Made by a program: the position numbers and the translations under genes. Shown here one piece after another: positions 10,762-13,082 of a stretch of DNA of 55,508 nucleotides. The DNA lies in NCBI GenBank assembly GCA_030729045.1, contig JANQYF010000038.1, forward strand, positions 1 through 55,508, read 5' to 3'. Numbering within the stretch: the first letter of the stretch is position 1; every line of letters begins with the position of its first letter. Source of the DNA: Ilumatobacteraceae bacterium. Its GTDB lineage: Bacteria > Actinomycetota > Acidimicrobiia > Acidimicrobiales > Ilumatobacteraceae. Under the pieces are notes generated by a model, which did not search any database, was not told the origin of the DNA, and was given only the letters and a program-made list of their open reading frames with translations.

Positions 10762-11451
10762 ATGACTACGCCTTCAATGGAGTGGGGCCGCCATGATTGG
10801 ACAGGTACTGCTGCTGATTTTCATGCAATGGAATTGCCATACGAACGTGCAATGTGGTGGTGCCAAGTAGCGGACCCAACTGTGATTCTCGGATCAACTC
10901 AAACAGCTGATGATGTGAATCAGTCCGTTGCAGATGAGAGTGGAGTTTTGGTATCGCGACGTCGAAGTGGCGGGGGCGCAGTATTCGTGCACCCAACAGA
11001 TTCTGTATGGATTGACATAACAATTAGCCGTAGCGACCCGCTATGGAAAGACGATGTCGCGCAGTCGATGCTGTGGCTTGGTGAACTGTTTGTGGAAGCT
11101 CTCTCACCATGGGTGCATGCTGAGGTGTATCGCGATTCTTTTTCAACTGGGGTTGATGGTCGTGTGGTCTGTTTTGCAAGTTCATCGCCCGGAGAAGTTT
11201 TTGTGGAAACAAACAAACTTGTGGGCATTAGTCAACGTCGCAGCCGTGACGGAGCCAGATTTCAGTGCGTGGTGTATCGACATTGGCGCCCAAGCGAATG
11301 GTCACACGTCCTTGCTTCTCCAGATGTTCGGTCACGGGTCGCAGATATTGCCGTGGCGACCCTTGATATCCCGGCCCTCACCCTTGTACATGCCGTCTCG
11401 GAGCAGCTTTCCCTCCTAGGTGGGGGACAGAGTGGTGAAATTTGGGGGTAA
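10762..11451 (+). CDS. Lipoate-protein ligase A family protein
   Basis: A 229-residue BPL/LPL fold protein. It contains the substrate-binding RRRSGGGAVFVHP segment, the DSVWIDI strand and NKLVGISQRRS with the lysine expected to contact the acyl-adenylate. The family attaches or transfers lipoyl, octanoyl or biotinyl groups to carrier lysines; which one is not clear, and the protein lacks the larger LplA C-terminal domain. The end of the gene overlaps the mraZ control region (TGG repeats start near 11433), so operator and coding sequence are shared there. Confidence 0.8.
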   Translation: MTTPSMEWGRHDWTGTAADFHAMELPYERAMWWCQVADPTVILGSTQTADDVNQSVADESGVLVSRRRSGGGAVFVHPTDSVWIDITISRSDPLWKDDVAQSMLWLGELFVEALSPWVHAEVYRDSFSTGVDGRVVCFASSSPGEVFVETNKLVGISQRRSRDGARFQCVVYRHWRPSEWSHVLASPDVRSRVADIAVATLDIPALTLVHAVSEQLSLLGGGQSGEIWG

Positions 11452-11477
11452 ATGGTTGACAGTGGGGGAAAGTGGGG
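11433..11477 (+). promoter_or_regulatory. MraZ-type operator: phased TGG repeats
   Basis: Five TGG-starting pentamers occur at 11433, 11443, 11453, 11463 and 11473, spaced by exactly 10 bp; those at 11443, 11463 and 11473 are TGGGG. A sixth TGGGG at 11421 is out of phase by 2. E. coli MraZ represses its own promoter by binding TGGGN repeats with the same 10-bp period. The array covers the mraZ promoter, so autoregulation of the whole cell-wall cluster is likely. Confidence 0.75.
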
Positions 11478-11484
11478 ATAATCT
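11456..11484 (+). promoter_or_regulatory. mraZ promoter
   Basis: A consensus TTGACA (11456-11461) is followed after 17 bases by TAATCT (11479-11484); an overlapping GATAAT (11477-11482) gives a 15-base spacer. Two TGGGG repeats fall between the -35 and -10, so bound MraZ would block RNA polymerase. Confidence 0.7.
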
Positions 11485-11529: not shown

Positions 11530-11946
11530 GTGTTTGTTGGAGTGCACGAGCGACAGCTCGACCCAAAAGGTCGACTCGCGCTCCCTGCTGCATTTCGCCC
11601 CCGTCTCGAGCCCCGCTGCTATTTGGCCTTTGGCCGAGATAAGTGCATCGATGTCCTAACAGCTGAAGCCTTCGAGCAAGTTGCCGAGGAAATGCTGCAG
11701 AAAGTTCGTAGCGGAGAAATGGACCGCAACGAACAGCGCGCTCTTGCCGCCAACACCATTGAGGTCACCATCGACGCTCAAGGTCGCGTGAACCTTGATG
11801 AGAAACTTCGCGAGTACGCAGGAGTGCAACTCGGCTCACGAGTGATTGTCGCCGGATCTTTTGACCGTGTCGAAATCTGGGAACCAGATCGCCATGATCG
11901 CAACATCAGTTCGGGTACCGAACAAATAGCTGGAGCGGGCGCGTGA
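11530..11946 (+). CDS. mraZ: Transcriptional regulator MraZ
   Basis: A 138-residue protein with two SpoVT-AbrB-like half domains (FVGVHERQLDPKGRLALPAAFRP at the start and VTIDAQGRVNLDEKLREYAG in the second half). MraZ forms a ring and represses its own promoter and the following cell-wall operon. The GTG at 11530 follows a GGAAGG ribosome site at 11517-11522. Phased TGG repeats over its promoter support autoregulation. A GTGA overlap at its stop could be misread as the rsmH start, but a structured region and the true rsmH ATG lie further downstream. Confidence 0.95.
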   Translation: MFVGVHERQLDPKGRLALPAAFRPRLEPRCYLAFGRDKCIDVLTAEAFEQVAEEMLQKVRSGEMDRNEQRALAANTIEVTIDAQGRVNLDEKLREYAGVQLGSRVIVAGSFDRVEIWEPDRHDRNISSGTEQIAGAGA

Positions 11947-11986
11947 TCCCCGATGCTCCTTACGTCTCTTCAATCAGTCAGCGGCC

Positions 11987-12110
11987 GACGGTCTCTGGCA
12001 GTCTCCCGGATGGCACGGTGGTTAGCTCCAACTCCGCCCGCTACCATCGCGCGCATTCCGGGGATACATCCGGGTGGCAATTGCTTTCCGGGAGGCTGCC
12101 AGGGACCGTC
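11987..12110 (+). ncRNA. Structured RNA element in the mraZ-rsmH gap
   Basis: Bases 11987-12010 pair with 12087-12110 in an uninterrupted 24-bp stem. Only two pairs (11994/12103 and 12002/12095) are not Watson-Crick, and both are U-G in the plus-strand RNA, so pairing is kept only in the sense transcript. The 76-base enclosed region can form a smaller helix (12017-12022 with 12040-12045). The element ends 22 bases before the rsmH ATG. An actinobacterial mraW RNA motif has been described upstream of rsmH (mraW) genes; this may be a member or a relative, which I cannot confirm. The other bases of the 185-base gap show no gene. Confidence 0.65.
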
Positions 12111-12131
12111 CGTCATGACACGGGTAGCACC

Positions 12132-13082
12132 ATGAACGCGGTCTTTGCTCACTTGCCAGTGATGCTTGAGCAAATAACCGATGTCTTTTCTGACATGAAT
12201 GACGGTGTTTTTCTCGACGCGACTCTTGGTGGTGCTGGCCATAGCACTGCAATCTTGACTGCGCACCCGCATGTGTCTTTGTTGGGAATTGACCAAGACG
12301 ACATGGCTCTTGACTCAGCTGAACAAGTTCTTGCAGCCGCTGGTTGTAGTGGACGCGTTGCCCTCCGGCGCGCCCGCTTCGATGCAGCGGCGCTGATCGC
12401 GGCGAAAGAGGGCATCAGTGCGTTGTCTGGTGCCCTCTTCGACCTCGGTGTCTCGTCTCCCCAGTTTGATGTTGCAGAGCGCGGATTTTCGTACCGATTT
12501 GATGCACCACTAGATATGCGCATGGACCGTACTCAAGCATTGAGTGCTGACGTGATTGTGAATACGTATGACGAAGATGCATTAACGAGCATGTTGCGTA
12601 GAAACGCTGATGAACGTCATGCGTATCGGATTGCAAAAGCAATCATTGCCGCACGTCCGATTCATTCAACTGTTCGTTTGTCAGACGTTGTTAGTTCTGC
12701 AATCCCTGCGCCAGCACGCCGTCGCGGCGGGCATCCTGCGAAAAGGACTTTTCAAGCAATTCGCATTGAAGTAAACGCAGAACTTGAAATTCTCCCTGGC
12801 GCACTTCGCAATGTCATTTCGTTGTTGGCTCCTGGTGCTCGCTTGGCAGTTCTGTCGTATCACTCTGGCGAAGACCGGATTGTGAAGTCGGTAATGCGTT
12901 CAGCTGAGACAGGTGATTGTGACTGTCCTCCAAATCTTCCATGTGGATGCGGTGCTGTGCGATCAGTTGTTCGCGTGCGTGCACCACGTGATGCAAGTAG
13001 AGCCGAATTGGCACAAAACCCGAGGTCGTCTTCGGCACGTTTGCGTGTTGTTGAGAAAATCCAAATTGAGAGTCAGAACTGA
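12132..13082 (+). CDS. rsmH: 16S rRNA (cytosine-1402-N4) methyltransferase
   Basis: A 316-residue SAM-dependent methyltransferase acting on C1402 in the ribosomal P site. It begins at the family-conserved FAHLPVMLEQI. The SAM loop DATLGGAGHS, LFDLGVSSPQFD and the ending SYHSGEDRIVK all match RsmH. The frame is open back to a GTG at 11943, but that 63-residue extension is unconserved in type and coincides with the RNA-like stem, so ATG 12132 was chosen. Four cysteines in a short C-terminal stretch (DCDCPPNLPCGCG) resemble the CxCP-type knuckle of actinobacterial RsmH. Second gene of the dcw cluster. Confidence 0.95.
   Translation: MNAVFAHLPVMLEQITDVFSDMNDGVFLDATLGGAGHSTAILTAHPHVSLLGIDQDDMALDSAEQVLAAAGCSGRVALRRARFDAAALIAAKEGISALSGALFDLGVSSPQFDVAERGFSYRFDAPLDMRMDRTQALSADVIVNTYDEDALTSMLRRNADERHAYRIAKAIIAARPIHSTVRLSDVVSSAIPAPARRRGGHPAKRTFQAIRIEVNAELEILPGALRNVISLLAPGARLAVLSYHSGEDRIVKSVMRSAETGDCDCPPNLPCGCGAVRSVVRVRAPRDASRAELAQNPRSSSARLRVVEKIQIESQN

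Follow-up and report, generated by a model that had tools for sequence, protein, structure and literature searches.

The window, by which we mean the entire 55,508-nucleotide stretch of DNA analyzed here, carries mraZ and rsmH in succession on the plus strand, and a long RNA hairpin follows mraZ within the open frame that leads into the RsmH domain. The features of the locus are as follows.

11530–11946, plus strand: mraZ, with a GTG start (Pfam MraZ PF02381, E 1.7e-18); precedes the element
11943–13082, plus strand: rsmH frame, whose GTG overlaps the mraZ TGA (GTGA); Methyltransf_5 (MraW domain) at residues 68–373, Pfam E 1.8e-95
11985–12014, plus strand: 5' arm of stem P1, with 30 consensus pairs, 23 of them changed on both sides in some sequence
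12016–12049, plus strand: hairpin P2, with consensus pairs 12016–12020 to 12045–12049, all five changed on both sides, and extra pairs in the single fold
12032–12042, plus strand: near-invariant P2 loop, CUCCGCCCGCU, conservation taken over 96 sequences
12058–12073, plus strand: hairpin P3 with a GAUACA loop, from fold and alignment; absent from the short form
12083–12112, plus strand: 3' arm of P1, carrying the purine run GGGAGG (12090–12095)
12132–12134, plus strand: ATG taken as the rsmH start by the first-pass annotation; in frame with 11943, a possible internal start, GTG in locus L008

Immediately before mraZ, at 11442–11480, the window holds repeated GTGGGG-like boxes, which we take to be an MraZ-type operator, and GCGGAG lies between the boxes and the mraZ start at many loci of the window's genus. 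Within rsmH there is also a separate 13-bp inverted repeat (92% complementary, 8-nt loop) at 12406–12439.

On the plus strand, positions 11987–12010 pair with 12087–12110 to form 24 uninterrupted pairs enclosing 76 bases. The predicted fold energy of this strand is −84.7 kcal/mol against a mean of −56.3 for shuffled sequences (z = −6.85), and none of the 200 shuffles was as good; the uninterrupted stem described by the first-pass annotation is borne out base by base. The consensus P1 is longer than those 24 pairs, extending to 30 (11985–12014 with 12083–12112), and inside it stand a second hairpin, P2, bearing the conserved loop, and a third, P3. Only two pairs of the 24-pair stem are not Watson–Crick, and both are U·G in the plus-strand RNA; in addition, the strand carrying rsmH outscores the opposite strand in covariance-model searches at every locus with both strands scored, which agrees with the earlier proposal that the sense transcript is favored. 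We conclude that the hairpin is a genuine RNA element. Three candidate roles or contacts were tried and rejected. No U run follows P1 in the window, as an intrinsic terminator would have. A kissing interaction between CUCC of the P2 loop and GGAG of the P3 loop is contradicted as a general feature by inspection by eye, as many genus loci have GGAU in P3 with CUCC unchanged and uncompensated. Pairing of the P2 loop with the mraZ 5' leader gave best runs of 7–9 bases at 28 loci, with P values of 0.11–0.80 against mononucleotide shuffles; this test assumed a fixed length in placing the mraZ start, which put it wrongly in L027. The tested partner was GGCGGAG, which precedes mraZ at many genus loci.

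The first-pass annotation had pointed to compensatory changes in homologous mraZ–rsmH gaps as a check on the element, and the signal is strong. Sixty-one genomes were searched for MraZ, 57 of them matched, and 50 mraZ–rsmH loci were taken; alignment A1 excludes L040, L045 and L051 as well as loci found only later by the covariance model. The RNAalifold consensus of 28 elements has 30 pairs in P1, 5 in P2 and 3 in P3, and 29 of these 38 pairs have both partners changed in at least one sequence. Such double changes fill 155 cells versus 47.3 in shuffled alignments, and the covariation score is 0.513 as compared with 0.238 for shuffled and 0.107–0.168 for slid alignments. More distant families have a short form of 105–116 nt that folds as P1 and P2 without P3, and in a set of 27 such sequences (alignment A4, near-duplicates excluded) 18 of 28 pairs are changed on both sides, with a score of 0.357 against 0.203 shuffled. 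The gene that follows is equally constant, in that rsmH lies downstream on the same strand at 131 of 134 loci (by motif; tblastn, E ≤ 1e-5). Because 49 of these loci were fetched via mraZ, the fair count is that of the model-found loci only, 83 of 85. The three loci without rsmH are L009, which ends with its contig, and L159 and L160, which are hits of 25–26 bits. The element is thus a conserved structured RNA tied to rsmH. This compensatory change and the tie to rsmH make cis-regulation after mraZ its likely role, and to that extent the earlier suggestion that it tunes expression after mraZ stands; the accompanying suggestion of membership in the mraW RNA family is not supported.

A covariance model, R1, was built from the 28 aligned elements; its E-values are rough, owing to a short calibration. 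Of 148 genomes sampled from the class Acidimicrobiia, 88 contain an R1 match, and no match was obtained in the other 60 under strict filters and with incomplete genomes included. Across a phylum sample it matches 23 of 396 genomes, 22 of which belong to Acidimicrobiia, while the remaining match scores 26 bits (E 0.008). Eighty named rsmH loci were searched as well; of the 26 top-ranking ones (tblastn E ≤ 9e-85), R1 matches 22. The four misses, in which no element was found at rsmH, are Desertimonas flava, Ilumatobacter nonamiensis (Ilumatobacteraceae, Acidimicrobiales, Acidimicrobiia) and two metagenome-assembled genomes (MAGs; L200, L204); the other 54 named loci gave a single match of 12.5 bits (E 0.78). 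When the regions upstream of rsmH in 20 genomes lacking an R1 match (L166–L185, of which L183–L185 are the three class members) were searched again, nothing was found at E ≤ 1, and the 19 inspected by eye (L184 had no domain match) showed no similar element. A distant actinobacterial rsmH (L170, genome G065) has a different strong hairpin upstream, GCCGGCTGAGAG / CTCTCAGCCGGC. Six named loci with 91–97% RsmH identity come from MAGs named Ilumatobacteraceae (a Lake Baikal isolate), uncultured Acidimicrobiaceae, Actinomycetota and, in three cases, Bifidobacterium breve; the last three (L186, L187, L188) have 97% RsmH identity to the window, and their label is apparently wrong.

The mraW RNA (RF01746; mraW is rsmH), a known hairpin RNA of Actinomycetota, also sits at the 5' end of this gene. 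Could the element be a divergent member of that family? Both lie at the same gene in the same phylum, and both have a long hairpin and a pyrimidine-rich loop beginning ACU. However, the search with the Rfam mraW model proposed by the first-pass annotation gave no match in the window, either at the gathering threshold or at E ≤ 10 on 901 bases. It likewise gave none at E ≤ 5 on 37 loci including the window's copy and none in the window's own genome, and scores stayed below the 50 bits taken as the lower bound for membership. In the other direction, R1 found nothing at E ≤ 1 on RF01746 loci, and with filters off it scored 7.6–13.9 bits at six RF01746 sites, below a hairpin elsewhere in L055 (27.7 bits). 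The loops differ as well: in Mycobacteriales the mraW RNA carries ACUUCCCC on a paired CCUGGC-type stem, whereas the element has ACUCCGCCCG on another stem. The two also occupy different taxa in the sampled genomes, RF01746 matching 8 of 119 phylum genomes and none of the 10 from Acidimicrobiia. An Rfam scan of the window and its relatives returned no family at gathering, and the sub-threshold matches on the element (DUF3800-IV and miRNA families) look like generic long hairpins. Membership in RF01746 is for these reasons decidedly improbable, even counting the further likeness that the rsmH frame is open across the whole mraW motif in five of six loci with a recognized domain. The mraW RNA is listed for Actinomycetales (PMC2864571) and given as of unknown function (PMC5640933), and it is tabulated as observed in two corynebacterial RNA-seq papers, where the C. 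diphtheriae entry places it upstream of the mraW transcription start (PMC3890552, PMC5784534). The rsmH frame is open across the entire RF01746 hairpin in L052, L054 and L056–L058 and opens inside it in L055, and from these frames the RF01746 RNA may also lie within coding sequence.

The relationship of the element to the RsmH reading frame differs between the window's genus and the rest of the class. An ATG does stand at 12132, just after the element, as the first-pass annotation held, but the RsmH frame is already open from the GTG at 11943. No clear Shine–Dalgarno sequence was seen by eye for the ATG at 12132. In 29 of 29 genus loci (30 less L009, which ends at a contig edge) the open frame reaches back to a GTGA, preceded by GGAG, in which it overlaps the mraZ stop. 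The distance from this GTGA to the domain takes nine different lengths, all whole codons, and the other two frames contain 2–5 and 0–7 stops. Differences at codon positions one, two and three, from 14 chosen pairs with some members shared, are 0.20/0.21/0.23 in the flank before the element, 0.09/0.08/0.10 in the element and 0.36/0.31/0.22 in the short flank after it; the coding controls give 0.06/0.04/0.32 for mraZ and 0.11/0.05/0.37 for RsmH. AlphaFold2 predicts the extension to be disordered, with pLDDT of about 30 over residues 1–60 and below 50 up to residue 68 (block means of 29–40 for residues 1–70 and 77–96 beyond, save one block of 57). The first-pass annotation had named translation of the region as an N-terminal extension of RsmH as a finding that would count against an RNA element. 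Such translation appears to be true in this genus, yet the RNA role stands because the covariation holds as well. From the frames, the stretch before the ATG at 12132 is probably coding in the window's genus and the RNA of dual use; the data are most simply read as a translated stretch whose peptide can drift freely while selection preserves the RNA fold. Outside the genus, a stop interrupts the RsmH frame between the element start and RsmH at 36 of 102 loci. Two genomes of the same family without an R1 match (G091 and G129; L183 and L185) lack the leader altogether; their rsmH starts in the mraZ stop (GTGA), and the mraZ frame is open for 174 codons before it. The absence of the leader together with this overlap suggests that the window's genus may represent a middle stage in the order of events.

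In genera other than that of the window, start signals of rsmH frequently lie within the 3' arm of P1. This arm carries a Shine–Dalgarno-like purine run, often GGGGGG, and at 52 of the 102 loci an in-frame rsmH start codon (44 ATG, 8 GTG) lies exactly 6 nt past it. The rule (a run of five or more purines in the 3' arm of P1, 6 nt, then ATG or GTG) was set after the alignment had been seen, and its sole control is the rate in the window's genus, where a start codon occupies that spot in 1 of 29 loci and is missing from the other 28. At a further 12 of the 102 loci the start codon at this spot opens a frame that does not run on into RsmH. Four of them (L039, L075, L156, L158) have a short frame that begins in the P1 3' arm and ends in an ATGA or GTGA shared with a possible rsmH start; it could encode a coupled leader peptide. 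The remaining 38 have no start codon there, and the equivalent of RsmH residue 1 falls between −17 and +104 nt from the element end. Among the 27 aligned short-form sequences, the three start-codon bases (columns 100–102) are paired with a CAU in the 5' arm (columns 17–15) in 22, 27 and 26 cases, respectively, G·U pairs included. With the purine run and the start codon both inside the 3' arm, the stem can close the ribosome-binding site. On the sequence evidence, the putative ribosome-binding site is within the stem at about half of the loci outside the genus, and elsewhere the stem is mostly upstream of the start; sequestration of the start is not universal, given these 38 loci and 28 of 29 in the genus.

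No stretch of the element is more conserved than the loop CUCCGCCCGCU. Every loop position is identical in 90–96 of 96 sequences, and positions 12033, 12035, 12037 and 12038 are identical in all 96. This set derives from 100 chosen loci, of which 96 passed an E limit of 1e-7; from their 108 matches, 12 antisense rows were dropped. Near-invariance over 96 sequences calls for a binder. The loop shares CCGCCCG with 16S rRNA around C1402, the target of RsmH, where the place of C1402 within this run is assumed from E. coli numbering and corresponds to window position 12037. Among 16S rRNA sequences of relatives, GUACACACCGCCCGUCACACC occurs in 9 of 31 genomes, and the other 22, the window's own genome included, have no exact match; the U at 12033, invariant in the loop, differs from 16S. 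Shuffled 11-mers contain CCGCCCG in 1.6% of cases and share at least seven bases over C1402 in 2.3% (P 0.016–0.023). Methylation of 16S C1402 by RsmH is described in two papers (PMC5053481; PMC10828496), the second of which reports that METTL15, a human relative of RsmH, binds h44 RNA via the backbone with no base specificity and binds poly-A too. This speaks against a role of the likeness, as does the different loop of the Mycobacteriales mraW RNA at rsmH. The likeness of the loop to the rRNA site of RsmH is a lead and no proof.

We hypothesize that the element is a cis-acting RNA of the rsmH mRNA of Acidimicrobiia that would control RsmH synthesis at the level of translation, perhaps through RsmH itself, and we judge the chances of this model as a whole to be evenly balanced. 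P1 would keep the ribosome-binding site of rsmH and its start codon, or those of the short overlapping upstream frame, double-stranded, and when P1 is closed rsmH translation would be low. A trans-acting factor would recognize the exposed P2 loop and thereby lock P1 or let it open. RsmH is the leading candidate for this factor, given that seven bases of its rRNA target, C1402 among them, recur in the loop; in its free state RsmH would then bind its own mRNA and shut off its own production. Since translation in the window's genus apparently starts upstream, at the GTG overlapping the mraZ stop, ribosomes there must cross the element. The bound element might in that case obstruct them or be a site of cleavage near the beginning of the coding sequence, with the factor acting on ribosomes translating the extension or on re-initiation from mraZ. 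The parts of this proposal differ in strength. Translational control of rsmH is highly probable, and that a protein binds the element is rather likely, while the identification of that protein as RsmH is tentative. It is doubtful, if possible, that RsmH represses itself by binding, and perhaps methylating, a C1402-like loop in its mRNA and that in one freshwater genus the RNA switch is also a drifting protein extension.

How else might a near-invariant loop on a covarying stem at rsmH be explained? One alternative retains control of rsmH translation and assigns the loop to a different ligand, such as a small molecule, a ribosomal protein or an assembly factor, with the 16S likeness being due to chance. 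A near-invariant loop whose match to 16S has a P value of only ~0.02, which is weak evidence, would permit this, as would the lack of base-specific RNA binding by METTL15 (PMC10828496). On the other hand, a short form consisting of P1 and the P2 hairpin only offers little small-molecule pocket, such that a metabolite switch fits poorly, and finding rsmH as the downstream gene at 131 of 134 loci speaks for RsmH or its substrate. We consider a different ligand possible, if on the unlikely side. A stem of 24–30 unbroken pairs between two cistrons could also be an RNase III-type processing site that separates mraZ from rsmH mRNA or shortens the life of the mRNA, and the finding that covariation in much of P1 preserves pairing and not sequence is consistent with this. 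Processing would nevertheless leave unexplained both the near-invariant P2 loop and the fixed spacing from purine run to start in 52 of 102 loci, and we regard it as improbable.

Two further explanations dispense with a regulatory RNA. If the stretch were protein-coding only, an N-terminal domain of RsmH with the hairpin as a by-product, then the open frame in all 29 genus loci, at nine lengths that are all whole codons, would be expected; however, the codon-position differences give no sign that amino acids are constrained in the element's flanks, the extension is predicted to be disordered (pLDDT ~30 over residues 1–60), covariation is strong, and stops break the RsmH frame in 36 of 102 loci outside the genus. 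This explanation is very unlikely. The long inverted repeat likewise recalls a mobile element inserted between mraZ and rsmH, and the first-pass annotation had held that copies elsewhere in the genome would speak for such an origin. The window's own genome (1.13 Mb in 41 contigs, ~80% complete) has one copy only, a second place was found over 148 class genomes only in G221 (25 bits), and the place at rsmH is constant, which reduces a mobile repeat to a negligible chance.

The element is a structured RNA that has no family in Rfam 15 and that marks, class-wide, rsmH after mraZ in the cell-wall and division cluster. In a literature search that excluded many subscription papers, no published report of the element or of RsmH autoregulation was found, and PMC13317604 uses none of five terms for autoregulation. 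If RsmH binds the element, an rRNA-modifying enzyme would gauge its own free level or the supply of its substrate through its mRNA, and ribosome maturation would be linked to the division cluster. Moreover, the loci provide a natural series (start in the stem; short coupled upstream frame; element within the coding sequence; no element, and mraZ overlapping rsmH) that allows study of a regulatory RNA turning into coding sequence.

The closest bacterial parallels are the autogenous leaders of ribosomal proteins (S15, L20, S6:S18), in which an mRNA structure at the gene start lets the product repress itself. Some ribosomal-protein leaders mimic a site in rRNA or block access to the ribosome-binding site. 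The element at rsmH differs from them in that its product is an rRNA methyltransferase, the binding of which is putative. An enzyme that controls an mRNA via a mimic of its substrate is known from yeast, where an aminoacyl-tRNA synthetase binds an anticodon mimic in its own mRNA (PMC6542539); in contrast to that yeast tRNA ligase system, the likeness at rsmH amounts to just seven bases of rRNA.
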